Source: Desulfofundulus salinus
GTDB lineage: Bacteria > Bacillota > Desulfotomaculia > Desulfotomaculales > Desulfovirgulaceae
Direction: 5' to 3'
Length of the DNA: 64,000 nt
NCBI RefSeq assembly: GCF_003627965.1
Contig: NZ_RBWE01000001.1
Coordinates: 688,546-752,545 of the forward strand
In this document: positions 3,892 to 23,500 of the stretch, in pieces
Layout: the number at the start of each line of letters is the position of its first letter
How positions within the stretch are numbered: the first letter of the stretch is position 1
Program-made: the position numbers and the translations under genes
The notes under the pieces: model-generated
Seen by the model: the letters and a program-made list of their open reading frames with translations, nothing else
Database searches by the model: none
Told to the model about the DNA's origin: nothing

Positions 3892-5590
3892 AAAAGAATA
3901 CGCCGATATGTTCGGTCCGACCGTTGGCGATAAAGTTCGGCTGGCCGATACAGATTTGTTTATTGAGGTTGAAAAAGATCTCACGGTGTATGGAGATGAG
4001 TGTAAATTCGGTGGTGGGAAAGTAATCCGCGACGGTATGGGTCAGTCACCAAGGTTGACGAGAGCTGCCGGTGCGTTAGATCTGGTTATTACAAATGCCT
4101 TGATCGTTGACTACTGGGGCATTATAAAGGCAGATATTGGTATTAGGGACGGTTTAATTGTCGGTATCGGAAAAGCCGGTAATCCAGATCTAATGGAAGG
4201 GGTTGACCCTAATTTAGTCATCGGAGCCAGTACTGAAGTTATCGCCGGGGAAGGTTTAATTGTTACGCCTGGTGGGGTGGATACTCATATTCACTTTATT
4301 TGTCCACAGCAGGTAGAGGCTGCGCTTTGTGCTGGAATAACAACGATGATCGGTGGGGGAACCGGTCCAACTACTGGTACCAACGCCACCACCTGTACTC
4401 CTGGCCCATGGAATCTATACCGTATGCTGGAGGCGGCGGAGGCATATCCAGTAAACATGGGTTTTCTGGGAAAAGGAAACGCTTCTTTTCCTGAGCCATT
4501 AGTAGAGCAGGTAAAGGCAGGTGCGATGGGATTTAAACTTCACGAAGACTGGGGTACAACACCCGCCGCAATTGATTGTTGTCTAAGGGTAGCTGACGAA
4601 TATGATGTGCAGGTGGCCATCCACACCGATACATTGAATGAGGCCGGGTTTGTAGAAGATACTATTGCGGCAATTAACGGCCGTACTATTCACACCTACC
4701 ATACTGAAGGAGCAGGCGGGGGGCACGCGCCGGACATTATTAAAGTTGCTTCCTATCCAAATGTACTTCCTTCTTCAACTAATCCCACGATGCCATATAC
4801 GATTAACACTATGGAAGAGCACCTAGATATGCTTATGGTGTGCCATCATCTGGATAGCAAGGTGCCCGAGGATGTAGCATTTGCTGAGTCGCGGATTCGA
4901 CCCGAGACGATTGCTGCAGAAGATGTATTGCATGATATGGGCGTCCTAAGTATGATGAGTTCTGATTCACAAGCCATGGGTAGAGTGGGGGAAGTAATAA
5001 TACGAACCTGGCAAACAGCAGACAAAATGAAGAAACAACGAGGACGTTTACCGCAAGAAGTGGGCGATAATGACAACTTTCGGGTAAAGCGTTATGTAGC
5101 CAAATATACTATAAACCCAGCTTTGACACATGGTATCGCCAAATATGTAGGCTCGATAGAGGTGGGTAAGCTAGCGGATCTGGTATTATGGAAACCCAAA
5201 TTTTTTGGGGTCAAACCAGAGTTGGTGGTTAAAGGAGGTATGATTGTCATGGCACAAATGGGAGATGCCAACGCGTCAATCCCCACACCACAGCCTGTTT
5301 TAGGCAGGTTAATGTTTGGTGGATACGGACGGGCAAAGTATAGCACTTGCTTGACCTTTGTTTCGAAATATGCCTTTGAAAGTGGAATTTCGGAAAAGCT
5401 TCGGCTTCAAAAGAAAGTCGCACCAGTAGGAAGCTGCCGTACCCTGACAAAGAAGCAGATGGTTCATAATGATACTACACCGGTGATTGAAGTAGATCCC
5501 GAAACGTATGAAGTAAGGGTAGATGGCGAATTAATCACCTGCGAGCCTGCAAGGGAACTGCCGCTAGCTCAGCGATATTTCCTGTTTTAG
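3872..5590 (+). CDS. ureC: Urease subunit alpha
   Basis: Catalytic subunit, 573 residues with the start chosen here. GGGAGG lies nine bases upstream of the ATG at 3872 and the protein then begins [17 protein letters not shown] as in other UreC; an upstream in-frame ATG would add a foreign nine-residue extension. All nickel-centre residues are present: HIH (His139, His141), the carbamylated lysine in GFKLHED (Lys222), His251, His277 and Asp365 in MSSDSQAM. The mobile-flap VCHHLD (Cys324, His325) is also present. The enzyme therefore looks fully functional once nickel is loaded by UreDEFG. Confidence 0.97.
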
Positions 5591-7373: not shown

Positions 7374-8230
7374 AAAAGGAGATACTTACCACAATCTCAA
7401 GTCCATTGCATATTGGGAAGCAAGGGCATCTTTATATCAAATTATCTCATAAAGAAGGCTTCACCTATATCGATGATAGCTATTGCGTCGCACCGCTAAA
7501 AATTGCCAAGCCCTTTTATTTGGATTCTAGTGGAGAAGTATTTCTTTACATCATGAACCCGACCGGTGGGATGGTACAGGGAGATCGCTATCGCATGGAT
7601 GTAGTTTTGGAGCCAGGCGCGCAAGCATTTCTCACTTCACAGGCTGCTACAAAAATATATCGTATGGAATATGATTATGCTGCTGCAACTGATTGTTTTA
7701 AGGTTAAGGAAGGAGCTTTATTAGAATATTTTCCTGACCCGGTTATACCGTTTGCGGGCTCTCGTTTTGTTGGTGAAACAGAAATAATAATTGATAGGGG
7801 TGGTAGCGCTTTTATTGGTGAAATATTGTTTCCCGGTCGTTTGAAAAGAGGTGAGATGTTTCAATATGATTTCTACAGCAGGAGAACAAGGGTTTTTTAC
7901 CAAGGGGAGCTAGTTTACTATGATTTTTTTGACTTGCGGCCAAAGGATAAAAAAGTTGACGTATTAGGCATGTTTGAGGGTTACACCTATTATGGACAGC
8001 TTACCATTTTTTCGAGTGCGGTAACCAGGGAACTCAGCGATCTCCTGCATTTTGCCTTACAAGATACTTCAGGCTTAACTGGTAGTGCCTCCTTGACTCA
8101 GAAGTATGGTGTTATTGTTCGCATTCTTGGCTCAAATAGTATACAGTTAACCAGTGCTTTAACCAAGTGTTGGGATATATCGCATAAATTTCTGTTAGGT
8201 CGACCTGCTCCTAAAATAAGGAAGTATTAA
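7370..8230 (+). CDS. ureD: Urease accessory protein UreD (UreH)
   Basis: Scaffold protein, 286 residues, that binds apo-urease and forms a tunnel for nickel. Visible family features are [29 protein letters not shown] (the conserved TSQAATK), [17 protein letters not shown] and [10 protein letters not shown]. It overlaps ureG by ATGA and closes the operon. After it the AT-rich segment ends; the following leader and amtB are more GC-rich, which suggests that urt/ure has a different history from the nif island. Confidence 0.94.
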
Positions 8231-8402: not shown

Positions 8403-8431
8403 TTGACAACAAATTCTCCCTGACTTATAAT
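8403..8431 (+). promoter_or_regulatory. Consensus sigma-A promoter of the amtB-glnB leader
   Basis: TTGACA at 8403-8408 and TATAAT at 8426-8431 are separated by exactly 17 bases, a perfect housekeeping promoter. Predicted RNA start is around 8438, immediately before the first ANTAR-type hairpin. A maximal promoter followed by terminators fits control by antitermination rather than by initiation. Confidence 0.88.
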
Positions 8432-8443
8432 CTGAACAGAGGC

Positions 8444-8510
8444 AGATACAGGGGAGTATCTAAGGAGGCAAGGGCGCCTTCTAAGGGAGGGTTCCGTTAG
8501 GAGGCGTTTT
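8444..8510 (+). promoter_or_regulatory. ANTAR-target dual hairpin overlapping terminator 1 (amtB leader)
   Basis: Hairpin P1 is AGATAC (8444-8449), loop AGGGGA (8450-8455), GTATCT (8456-8461). Hairpin P2 is AGGAGGC (8463-8469), loop AAGGGC (8470-8475), GCCTTCT (8476-8482). Both hexaloops have A at position 1 and G at position 4, the known recognition features of ANTAR antiterminator proteins (EutV, NasR, AmiR class). The 3' arm of P2 is also the 5' arm of a terminator, CGCCTTCTAA (8475-8484) with TTAGGAGGCG (8497-8506) and TTTT. P2 and terminator are thus mutually exclusive, as in the established mechanism. Confidence 0.85.
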
Positions 8511-8526
8511 ATCCCGTACAAACGGT

Positions 8527-8594
8527 ATATCCAATGGTGGAGATCAAGCAAAGGCGCTTTTTCAGAAGGTGTTTCTTCTGAAGGGCGCCTTTTT
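8527..8594 (+). promoter_or_regulatory. Second ANTAR-type module with terminator 2 (amtB leader)
   Basis: A P1-like hairpin has loop AATGGT (8533-8538) on a CC/GG stem extended with one A-G mismatch. A P2-like hairpin is AAGC (8546-8549), loop AAAGGC (8550-8555), GCTT (8556-8559). Both loops again have A1 and G4. P2 overlaps the 5' arm of a long terminator: 8552-8568 pairs with 8575-8590 with one bulge, followed by a T-run to 8594. Stems are weaker than in module 1 but the layout is the same. Confidence 0.72.
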
Positions 8595-8600
8595 ATCATA

Positions 8601-8666
8601 CCAGCGTGGGCTCAAAGCAAGGGTGCTTTAAAGGGAGCAATGTTGTTCCGCTAAAGCACCCTTTTT
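8601..8666 (+). promoter_or_regulatory. Third ANTAR-type module with terminator 3 (amtB leader)
   Basis: P2-like hairpin AAAGC (8614-8618), loop AAGGGT (8619-8624), GCTTT (8625-8629), with A1 and G4 in the loop. Its 3' arm is part of the terminator GGGTGCTTTA (8621-8630) / TAAAGCACCC (8652-8661), followed by TTTTT (8662-8666). The candidate P1 (loop AGCGTG, 8603-8608) has only a two-pair stem, so the dual-hairpin form is uncertain here. 8667-8802 before the amtB ribosome site shows no gene. Confidence 0.62.
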
Positions 8667-8817: not shown

Positions 8818-10215
8818 GTGTACAGGCGAATCATGAATGGCCTTTACCTTTTACTTCTGGTATTGCTGGCCGCACCCGGTCTGGCCTGGGCCGGTGAAGC
8901 TCAAATTGATACGGGAGATACCGCATTCATACTTATCTCTGCAGCACTGGTGATGCTCATGACCCTGCCCGGAGTGGCCCTGTTTTACGGTGGTATGGTC
9001 AGGCGCAAGAATACCCTCAGCACGATCATGCAGAGCCTGTTTATCATGGCCCTGATTTCGGTGCAGTGGGTGCTCTGGGGTTACAGCCTGGCTTTTGGTC
9101 CCGACCAGGGGGGGGTAATCGGTGACCTTTCCTGGCTTGGCTTAAACGGTGTGGGTCAAGAACCCAATGCCGATTATTCGGCTACCATTCCGCACCTGGC
9201 TTTTATGGCCTTCCAGATGATGTTTGCGGTCATTACGGCAGCCCTGATTACCGGGTCCTTTGCTGAGCGCATGCGTTTCCCGGCTTTTGTAGCCTTTACC
9301 CTGCTCTGGTCGACTTTCGTTTACGACCCCCTGGCTCACTGGGTATGGGGCGTGGACGGGTGGATGCGTAACCTGGGCGCCCTGGACTTTGCCGGCGGCA
9401 CGGTGGTGCACATTTCCTCCGGCGTATCCGGCCTGATCGCGGCCCTGGTGCTGGGCCGGCGAAAGGGTTACGGTTCGGAGCCGATGGTGCCCCATAACCT
9501 GCCCCTTACGGTCCTGGGAGCGGCGCTGCTGTGGTTTGGGTGGTTCGGTTTTAATGCCGGCAGCGCCCTTTCGGCCAGCGGACTGGCAGCCAGCGCTTTT
9601 GTGGTGACCAATACGGCCGCTGCAGCGGCAGCCCTCTCCTGGGTCTTTGCCGAGTGGATCCGTCACGGCAAGCCTACCGTGCTTGGTGGCGCCAGTGGCC
9701 TGGTGGCCGGTCTGGTGGCCATCACCCCCGCTTCCGGCTTTGTCGGTCCCATTCCTGCCGTAATCATCGGCCTGGTGGCCGGCGTGGTCTGCTACCTGGC
9801 GGTGAGCGTGGTCAAGACCCGGCTGGGTTATGATGATTCACTTGACGCTTTCGGCGTGCACGGTATCGGCGGTACGTGGGGCGCGCTGGCCACCGGCCTG
9901 TTTGCTTCCAGGGCTGTTAACCCTGCCGGTGTTGACGGGCTGCTCTTTGGCAACCCCCATCAGCTGTGGATCCAGTTTATCAGCGTACTGGCCAGCTGGC
10001 TGTTTGCCGCCGTTATGACTTTCGTCATCCTCAAGGTGGTGGGATTGTTCTTCAAGTTGCGGGCCAGCGAAGATGAAGAGGTACAGGGTCTGGATATCAC
10101 CCAGCATGGTGAGGATGCCTACTCAGACATGGTGCTGGGCGCACCGGTGAGCCGCATTCAAAGCTTATCGGGTTCTCATTCTACCGTGGTCACTACCAGG
10201 GAAGCCGGTGTGTAA
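8818..10215 (+). CDS. amtB: Ammonium transporter Amt
   Basis: Polytopic ammonium channel of 465 residues with an N-terminal signal-like segment and about 11 membrane helices. Family signatures include GVALFYGGMVRRKNTLS, FAGGTVVHISSGVSGLIAALVLG, LGAALLWFGWFGFNAGSA and FGVHGIGGTWGALATGLFAS; the twin pore histidines are in the VVHI and GVHG segments. The GTG start at 8818 is nine bases after AGGAGG; an in-frame ATG at 8833 has no comparable site. The 3' neighbour is a PII protein, the usual partner that blocks the channel when nitrogen is plentiful. Transcription is probably controlled by the upstream antitermination leader. Confidence 0.95.
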   Translation: MYRRIMNGLYLLLLVLLAAPGLAWAGEAQIDTGDTAFILISAALVMLMTLPGVALFYGGMVRRKNTLSTIMQSLFIMALISVQWVLWGYSLAFGPDQGGVIGDLSWLGLNGVGQEPNADYSATIPHLAFMAFQMMFAVITAALITGSFAERMRFPAFVAFTLLWSTFVYDPLAHWVWGVDGWMRNLGALDFAGGTVVHISSGVSGLIAALVLGRRKGYGSEPMVPHNLPLTVLGAALLWFGWFGFNAGSALSASGLAASAFVVTNTAAAAAALSWVFAEWIRHGKPTVLGGASGLVAGLVAITPASGFVGPIPAVIIGLVAGVVCYLAVSVVKTRLGYDDSLDAFGVHGIGGTWGALATGLFASRAVNPAGVDGLLFGNPHQLWIQFISVLASWLFAAVMTFVILKVVGLFFKLRASEDEEVQGLDITQHGEDAYSDMVLGAPVSRIQSLSGSHSTVVTTREAGV

Positions 10216-10614
<399 letters not shown>

Positions 10615-10651: not shown

Positions 10652-11677
<1,026 letters not shown>

Positions 11678-18957: not shown

Positions 18958-19102
18958 ATCCTTTAAGAAGGACAGAAGATGCCTCGCCCAAAATAAATAT
19001 ATTTCCGCTGTCTATTTCTCCGGATCCACAATCCGGTATTCTTGCTTTATACCCTTGTTTTTGTTAGAATACCGGTAAGAAAATTGCTTTGGAGCAATGG
19101 TG

Positions 19103-19138
19103 CCCCTGTCCTTCCGCTTTAACGGGGACAGGGTTTTT
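19103..19138 (+). terminator. Intrinsic terminator after nifV / before nadE
   Basis: CCCCTGTCC (19103-19111) pairs with GGGACAGGG (19125-19133) and is followed by TTTTT (19134-19138). It probably ends the nif transcript. The AT-richer stretch 18958-19100 contains no gene I can support; it may be foreign sequence joined at the nifV break. Confidence 0.8.
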
Positions 19139-22870: not shown

Positions 22871-23500
22871 TTAGATGAAATTAAATATTTTGTCTATCCT
22901 GGCTACAAAGCGGTGGCCAATACGGGTCAGGGAAAAAACCTGCCACAGCATACCTATTTCAGCAGCCAGGATTAGGATTGCCATGTTGGGGCTGGAGAGT
23001 ACTAGAAGAGCGAGTTGAAGCGTAACAATACCTAACACTGCTGCTGATGAGAGCCAGCGAAAACGTTGCCGTTCCCGTGGTGAGGTAATGGGCTTGGCCG
23101 GGGAATCCACCGGCGCCAGCCGCCAGGCAACCGCAAAAGCCAATGCCCCGCCGGCCAGAATCACCAGAGCTAGTAAAGGACGTGGGAAAAATGGTGTAAG
23201 ATTGGTTGCCAGCGTTCCAAACAGGGGGACAGTCAGGATACTTAAAATGGTACACCGTGCGGGCGATGTACAATGGGCGCCGCCGGAAAAAGAGCGCAGG
23301 AAGGCGCTTGTAAAAAGTGCTGCCAGGGCGGCCGGCAGGCATCCCGCCAGCCATGCCACCAGCGATATGCCCAGCATGGAGACGACGGTCTGAAAGAGGA
23401 TCAGCAGGCTGTAGGCCGCAATCTCTTCCTGCTCTTCTGTTAGCGCCAGGGTTTTGCGCAGGTAACCGGCTAATTCCCGGGAGGGACTAAAACGGACCAC
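22871..23500 (-). CDS. agrB: AgrB-like peptide-processing membrane endopeptidase
   Basis: Membrane cysteine protease, 209 residues, that cleaves the tail of AgrD and cyclises the peptide. The AgrB hallmark FLRSFSGGAHCTSPARC is at residues 67-83; catalytic His76 and Cys83 have the spacing of His77/Cys84 in Staphylococcus AgrB. Several hydrophobic segments follow. The GTG start is supported by AGGTGA overlapping the stop of the upstream gene. It is followed 17 bases later by agrD. No AgrC kinase or AgrA regulator is found in the window. Confidence 0.93.
   Translation of the reverse strand: MVRFSPSRELAGYLRKTLALTEEQEEIAAYSLLILFQTVVSMLGISLVAWLAGCLPAALAALFTSAFLRSFSGGAHCTSPARCTILSILTVPLFGTLATNLTPFFPRPLLALVILAGGALAFAVAWRLAPVDSPAKPITSPRERQRFRWLSSAAVLGIVTLQLALLVLSSPNMAILILAAEIGMLWQVFSLTRIGHRFVARIDKIFNFI

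Follow-up and report, generated by a model that had tools for sequence, protein, structure and literature searches.

A predicted series of three ANTAR-type attenuators ahead of amtB in Desulfofundulus salinus, the third without a P1 hairpin

Transcription of the ammonium transporter gene amtB in Desulfofundulus salinus would have to pass three terminators, each of them overlapped by a hairpin with an ANTAR-type hexaloop. The question raised by this locus is whether all three could be released by ANTAR antitermination proteins, as the third terminator is accompanied by only one of the two usual hairpins. The preferred answer, with a probability of about 0.85, is that the leader is a serial transcription attenuator relieved by ANTAR protein at every terminator (T1 to T3), including the one that overlaps the lone P2 hairpin of module 3. 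The hairpins, the terminators, their overlap, their conservation, and the ANTAR genes with their conserved RNA-binding residues were all obtained by computation on the window, that is the whole stretch of 64,000 nucleotides, and on genomes of the same order.

Gene content and leader anatomy

Profile matches gave the gene order in the window as urease operon, amtB, P-II, nifH, P-II and the nitrogenase component 1 genes.

Upstream of the amtB leader: urease operon (urease alpha; ureD-like gene, end at 8230), profile matches
8818..10215, plus strand: amtB, ammonium transporter, TIGR00836 above cut-off
10276..10614, plus strand: glnB-like P-II protein, PF00543
10850..11677, plus strand: nifH, TIGR01287 above cut-off
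11725, after nifH: second P-II gene in the window, P-II match
12811: nitrogenase component 1 gene, alpha subunit, above the subfamily cut-off
14100: nitrogenase component 1 gene, nifK-like, below cut-off

An IS66-family transposase (28-1596) was located at the start of the window. In addition, positions 4027-4322 on the minus strand, antisense to the urease alpha gene, matched the Rfam family 5_ureB_sRNA with 104 bits, which may reflect conserved coding sequence instead of a true antisense RNA.

The leader between the urease operon and amtB was composed of the following elements, all on the plus strand.

8403..8431: sigma-A promoter TTGACA-17-TATAAT, 12/12 consensus positions
8444..8461: P1 hairpin of module 1, 6 bp around the loop AGGGGA; class A by its closing pairs AC[]GT; found by the hexaloop script and within the model R1 match 8444-8479 (32.5 bits)
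8463..8482: module 1 P2 (antiterminator) hairpin, loop AAGGGC, -10.0 kcal/mol; stem longer if one mismatch is allowed
8473..8510: module 1 terminator T1, U-tract 8507-8510, -23.2 kcal/mol (-22 to -24 across computations)
8527..8544: P1 hairpin of module 2, 5 bp plus one mismatch around the loop AATGGT; class B by its closing pairs CC[]GG
8546..8559: module 2 P2 hairpin, loop AAAGGC, 4 bp; found by the script and within the model R1 match 8527-8559 (13.2 bits, E 0.1)
8550..8594: module 2 terminator T2, U-tract 8590-8594, -25.2 kcal/mol
8614..8629: module 3 P2 hairpin, loop AAGGGT, without P1 upstream; found by the script
8619..8666: module 3 terminator T3, U-tract 8662-8666, -25.3 kcal/mol

The hairpins were located by a script for ANNGNN hexaloops, which also reported two hairpins inside terminators 1 and 3. 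The promoter had been called perfect in an earlier, sequence-only reading, and its 12 matching positions with a 17-nt spacer justify the word; it is retained in the congeners L006 and L008, and in L009 with one extra spacer base. The three terminators proposed in that reading, ending at 8510, 8594 and 8666 and each overlapped by a hairpin with A1 and G4 in its hexaloop, were all recovered by script or folding. The P1 partners AGGGGA and AATGGT of the first two modules were found as well, the stem of AATGGT being weak (3 bp core, -2.0 kcal/mol). The 5' arm of each terminator sits in the loop and 3' arm of its P2, so P2 and terminator are mutually exclusive by sequence overlap in modules 1 to 3. 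The whole leader folded with z = -5.5, and none of 200 shuffles folded equally well.

A generic terminator scan over 4.5 kb listed T2 alone among T1 to T3, with 6 sites in total compared with 4.9 in shuffles. It is the overlap with hexaloops, and the conservation of that overlap, that counts as specific evidence, rather than the terminators by themselves.

Module 1 fits the two-hairpin definition of an ANTAR target, with A1 and G4 in both loops (AGGGGA and AAGGGC). Module 2 fits it by its loops AATGGT and AAAGGC, with only the 3 bp core in its P1 and the low model score given above. The linker between P1 and P2 in these two modules is 1 nt with the longest stems and 5-8 nt with 3 bp cores, the value hanging on the stem definition; the linker of Enterococcus faecalis eut is 5-12 nt, and 3 or 14 nt impaired function. 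For module 3, no conserved P1 was found in the own leader or its congeners, the candidate CC[AGCGTG]GG having 2 bp and being absent from L006 and L008. Module 3 is therefore not a standard ANTAR target. It fits just the single-hexaloop minimal binding motif of Walshe 2022 (PMC8934654), a paper that reduces the definition of the minimal ANTAR target to one hexaloop and calls for bioinformatics on single hexaloops.

Covariance model and conservation across the order

An independent covariance model (R1) was built from intergenic regions adjoining ANTAR genes, with 39 glutamine-synthetase-cluster elements from 24 loci of the order and none from amtB. In total 42 such elements were found, of which three atypical ones (L048, L046:1428 and L049:1422) were dropped. 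The consensus was GGTAC[RNNGNN]GTAYC, a short linker and GGC[RNNGNN]GCC. Five of the six P1 pairs change on both sides, a count biased upward because the script picked P1 for pairing, and three P2 pairs are invariant.

In the window, model R1 placed amtB module 1 at rank 1 (8444-8479, E 7.5e-7), a site before nifH (10666-10701, 21.7 bits) at rank 2 and module 2 at rank 4. Rank 3, with 15.5 bits, was a match at 22901 which outscores module 2; it lies in a non-leader stretch and was taken as chance. Thus the covariance check suggested by the sequence-only reading came out clearly for module 1 and weakly for module 2. Across the own genome, the five best places were taken by amtB module 1 and four elements of the glutamine synthetase cluster, two of which belong to the seed. 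Another match at 1,446,588 (28.2 bits) was discarded as a false positive, since the module scan (L057) detected no terminator there and the stretch is apparently coding. Module 1 was also detected in L006-L012 and L111, with 13.2-40.8 bits.

At E 0.01 the model matched 54 of the 60 genomes of the order, and ANTAR protein matches were present in 55. The model matched without an ANTAR protein match in G021 and G044, the reverse was seen in G034, G051 and G053, and neither was found in G024, G047 and G059.

Conservation was followed in 58 amt leaders of the order (up to about 850 nt), comprising 53 of the 73 listed matches and 5 others; 20 of the 58 leaders were retrieved by their location, and the listed amt matches outside the set are mostly weaker paralogues. 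Leaders from one genus are not independent. The promoter and the three hairpins recur in congeners. In L006, L008 and L009 module 1 is degraded by a closing C.A mismatch and a short U-tract and gave no module call (the counterpart of T1 is weak in L009 and was not called in L006 and L008), so three modules are not strictly maintained. Three modules with altered loop letters were present in other genera (L010 and L011) and in another family (L111), and the series of three besides the own leader are L007, L010, L011, L096, L111 and L112. L011 was listed with four modules, but the fourth was rejected as false, since it sits in coding sequence; this false module was left in the array counts and removed for the comparison of terminator strength.

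Arrays of at least two modules were called in 26/58 leaders and of at least three in 7/58. These array sizes are lower bounds, because the caller recognizes only apices of the form GC[RNNGNN]G and passes over others, for example GCC[..]GGC in L102, L103 and L106. For Desulfotomaculum acetoxidans, Ramesh 2012 (PMC3369931) counts no fewer than 13 elements, distributed over six transcription units, by which tandem ANTAR modules are already implied in print. The former statement that the series goes beyond the usual single element was hence too strong.

Among the 125 terminator-overlapped GC-hexaloop-GC apices of the 58 leaders, 95 had a purine at loop position 1 and G at position 4 (R1/G4); the numbers of such apices were 6, 3 and 4 in shuffles and 2 in reverse strands. 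Position 1 was A in 68, G in 40 and another letter in 17 of all 125, therefore the rule here is R1 and not strict A1. This agrees with the EutV structure, where G4 is stacked against Tyr164 and the protein does not contact A1 specifically (Walshe 2022, PMC8934654). The same loop test in the window from 20 to 64 kb gave R1/G4 in 20/115, no marked excess. In an AmtB scan of named genomes, mostly of other phyla, 18/47 terminator-overlapped apices in 79 leaders were R1/G4, an excess much weaker than within the order. A loose scan for P2-terminator pairs over the 64 kb returned dozens of chance-like matches, so the later tests were confined to leaders and their GC-hexaloop-GC apices, with shuffles and reverse strands as controls.

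The presence of P1 depended on position in the array. A P1 within 12 nt was called in 29/34 non-last modules versus 6/26 last modules (Fisher p 1.4e-6, a value that ignores shared ancestry), against a call background of 173/1160 random positions (15 percent) and 14/45 terminator-free apices. The closing pairs were AC[]GT in 15/26 first modules and CC[]GG in 6/8 middle modules, and 20/26 last modules had none; the module called first in L006, L008 and L009 is really module 2. The order class A, class B, none was kept in five of the seven three-module arrays (L005, L007, L010, L011 and L111), the exceptions being L112, whose first module lacks P1, and L096 with P1 in all three. This positional rule looks new; in the texts available to an open-access literature search, no report was found of a three-module series, of P1-less last modules or of P1 classes.

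The lack of P1 is not confined to last modules, since 16/28 single-module leaders also had no standard P1. Inspection by eye added several observations. In the single-module leaders L101, L113, L116 and L117 a hairpin of GGTGAC/GTCACC type, with an 11-nt loop opening RNNG, stands at the expected place of P1 and near the apparent end of the upstream gene, and is possibly a P1 variant overlapping a stop codon. The single modules of L122 and L123 have a P1 26-27 nt away, and the P1-less last modules of L097-L099 carry what resemble decayed P1s.

P1-less modules with a terminator-overlapped R1/G4 hexaloop numbered 39 (30 distinct 14-mers) in the 58 leaders, compared with 6, 2 and 3 in shuffles and 2 in reverse strands; at about tenfold over shuffles they are therefore real as a class. 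Their P2 hairpins are slightly more stable (-4.0 versus -3.1 kcal/mol), and terminator strength rises at the end of arrays (median -27.6 kcal/mol for last versus -22.3 kcal/mol for earlier terminators; the last is the stronger in 20/26 leaders).

These numbers bear on the best surviving alternative, in which modules 1 and 2 are ANTAR attenuators and module 3 is a plain terminator, or is released by another factor, its hexaloop being a by-product of the 5' arm of the terminator. The missing P1 and the greater strength of last terminators would suit it, as would the loss of antitermination in vitro when the linker was lengthened by 20 nt (Walshe 2022, PMC8934654) and, in E. faecalis, the negative effect of P1 deletion on eutP induction. 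Against it stands the tenfold excess of P1-less R1/G4 hexaloops, and the last module retains R1/G4 while its other letters differ among genera (AAGGGT, GAGGGT, AAGGGC), although the caller itself demands R1/G4. This alternative deserves consideration but is rather unlikely. The sequence-only reading of three ANTAR modules is supported for module 1 (strong by model R1) and module 2 (weak), helped by the layout in other genera, the two ANTAR proteins of the genome and the nitrogen genes downstream; for module 3, which lacks P1, it is not borne out in that form.

Further elements and the ANTAR proteins

Two further modules were recognized in the leader of nifH, both on the plus strand.

10666..10745: module N1, P1 loop AAAGAT, P2 loop ATTGGC, GC-rich hairpin, poor U-tract, model R1 21.7 bits
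10774..10819: module N2, P2 loop AAAGGT, no P1 call, strong terminator, partial model R1 match 10776-10789

Together with the three of amtB they bring the amtB-glnB-nifH stretch to five modules. Among relatives, the N1 counterpart had the same P1 and P2 in L006, L008 and L009, a P2 without P1 in L007 and no P1 call in L010 and L011. N2 was P1-less in L006-L008, and a P1-like hairpin was called in L009. For the nifH leader of L012 the module caller gave none. Elsewhere in the window, positions 19089-19136 hold a candidate P1-less hexaloop/terminator (AATGGT) ahead of an NAD synthetase gene with amidohydrolase domain, which may be due to chance.

Outside the window, ANTAR-type elements are gathered in a glutamine synthetase cluster.

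L004 9910-17900 (own genome C1, about 598-606 kb): cluster of three glutamine synthetase genes, two ANTAR genes and about five ANTAR-type elements
L004 14069-14650 and 9910-10494: the two REC-ANTAR genes, each adjoining and upstream of a glutamine synthetase gene

Two-hairpin elements were found before ANTAR1, before two of the glutamine synthetase genes and after the last of these, and a P1-less element before a further glutamine synthetase gene. The element ahead of the ANTAR gene makes autoregulation possible. Near 683 kb, at another P-II/amt locus, both genes are preceded by a module; model R1 (23.0 bits) and visual inspection revealed the first of the two, and the caller the second. The amt gene there (L018 1501-1929, own genome C1 683780-684208) aligns over query residues 293-442 only and lies in an open frame of 260 aa, with counterparts of 517 aa in G003 and G005; it looks truncated. 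In G031, two modules were called before one amt gene (L108) and one before another (L092), and two matches to model R1 lie 273 nt apart near its other amt genes.

The earlier reading had made its case depend on the genome encoding an ANTAR-domain protein; two REC-ANTAR proteins above the Pfam ANTAR cut-off were identified, with the RNA-contact residues kept, and a third match was below the cut-off. The residues were surveyed in 31 ANTAR proteins, namely those of the best-scoring 30 loci of the order and the second own protein. In this sample, the EutV contact residues R142, K143, Y/F164 and M172 were kept in 31/31, and position 147 was K or R in 29/31. The phospho-acceptor position 54 was Glu in 22, Asp in 6 and Gly, Ser or His in 1 each, so pseudo-receivers seem to be used across much of the order. 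Both own proteins have Glu in place of Asp54, and are thus not classical phosphorylated REC-ANTAR regulators of the EutV type. It may be guessed that the signal enters through a partner such as P-II or glutamine synthetase.

With two such paralogues in the genome, class A and class B P1 hairpins could be read by different ANTAR proteins, making the leader an AND gate with two inputs. The succession of class A by class B, seen in five of the seven arrays with three modules, would fit this idea, as would the finding in E. faecalis that altered P1 closing pairs abolished induction with the stem kept. On the other hand, G033 has one ANTAR match and yet its array (L112) contains a class B P1, and the two own proteins share their contact residues except for K or R at 147. 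The AND gate is improbable; the multi-input control mentioned in the sequence-only reading is possible in view of the two P1 classes and two proteins.

The hairpins might also merely insulate amtB from the urease operon, since they sit between the end of the ureD-like gene and amtB. But the leader's own 12/12 promoter precedes them, and insulators in that place would block amtB itself; the hexaloop overlap, the P1 pairs and the persistence in congeners with different upstream sequence would be left unexplained as well, and this explanation has very little to recommend it. Terminator leaders ahead of metabolic genes are frequently riboswitches, but a riboswitch or T-box leader with serial terminators is hardly credible here, for in the leader Rfam gave no family at gathering score, and relaxing the limit to E 10 added just two matches, both on the minus strand and below threshold; none was credible or to an ANTAR family.

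Proposed mechanism and known systems

In the preferred reading, serial attenuation relieved by ANTAR protein, we infer the binding, the antitermination, the direction of the nitrogen response and the hand-over to module 3. RNA polymerase would start just past 8431 and meet the three terminators before amtB. When ammonium is sufficient, each terminator hairpin would form and the transcript would end early. Under nitrogen limitation, an ANTAR dimer of one or both REC-ANTAR proteins would load in modules 1 and 2 first on P1 and next on P2, and by holding P2 would prevent T1 and T2. At T3, ANTAR protein on the solitary P2 hexaloop would do the same, probably in the form of dimers that the upstream RNA has recruited beforehand. 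As polymerase would reach amtB only if all three terminators were prevented, the basal leak would be multiplied down. The same logic may be repeated before nifH with two modules.

The control had been supposed to be very tight and possibly switch-like. A calculation for three independent modules in series gave an apparent Hill coefficient of 1.22-1.26, which makes the switch weak; the dynamic range multiplies, for example from 10-fold each to 1000-fold. According to this model, the series layout provides tightness and not a switch.

For EutV, Walshe 2022 (PMC8934654) proposes recruitment of the dimer by P1 and its reception by P2, both hairpins being needed. Extending this, it is conceivable, if somewhat doubtful, that the upstream P1s recruit ANTAR dimers to the nascent RNA and that these pass to the P2 of the last, P1-less module. 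If so, one recruitment step would serve several terminators, P1-less modules would be inert alone and active behind a full module, and the presence of P1 in most upstream modules and its absence from most last ones would be explained. The many single-module leaders without standard P1 speak against such a simple relay. Through this idea the recruitment-hairpin model of Walshe 2022 could be tested directly, and the P1-less last modules of arrays are a natural system for testing the purpose of P1. More broadly, ammonium transport and nitrogenase are costly, and the bacterium seems to keep both under the control of serial RNA attenuators.

NasR/nasF and AmiR/amiE are likewise ANTAR proteins acting on the leaders of nitrogen genes. 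These two systems use other sensors. In Geobacter sulfurreducens, nif genes are said to be under a two-component antiterminator, GnfK/GnfR. NasR and AmiR act at one locus each according to the available part of Ramesh 2012 (PMC3369931), and AmiR also has a pseudo-receiver without phospho-acceptor (Walshe 2022, PMC8934654).

EutV/eutP of Enterococcus faecalis shares with the present system a REC-ANTAR protein with the same RNA-contact residues, the order P1, P2 and terminator, and the G4 of the loop. As far as the available text goes, it differs in that EutV is activated at Asp54, where both proteins here have Glu; in addition, loop position 1 here is A or G, and arrays with P1-less modules occur.

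A close likeness is that to D. acetoxidans, in which Ramesh 2012 (PMC3369931) predicted ANTAR attenuators before ammonium transporter, P-II, nif and glutamine genes. Its RNAs have the same two hexaloop hairpins, a P2 overlapping the terminator and nitrogen genes downstream; the series of three, the P1-less last modules and the order of P1 classes are not described in the available part of that paper. ANTAR attenuation before nitrogen genes is thus a known type, and the serial layout with a P1-less third unit is common to relatives of this bacterium.
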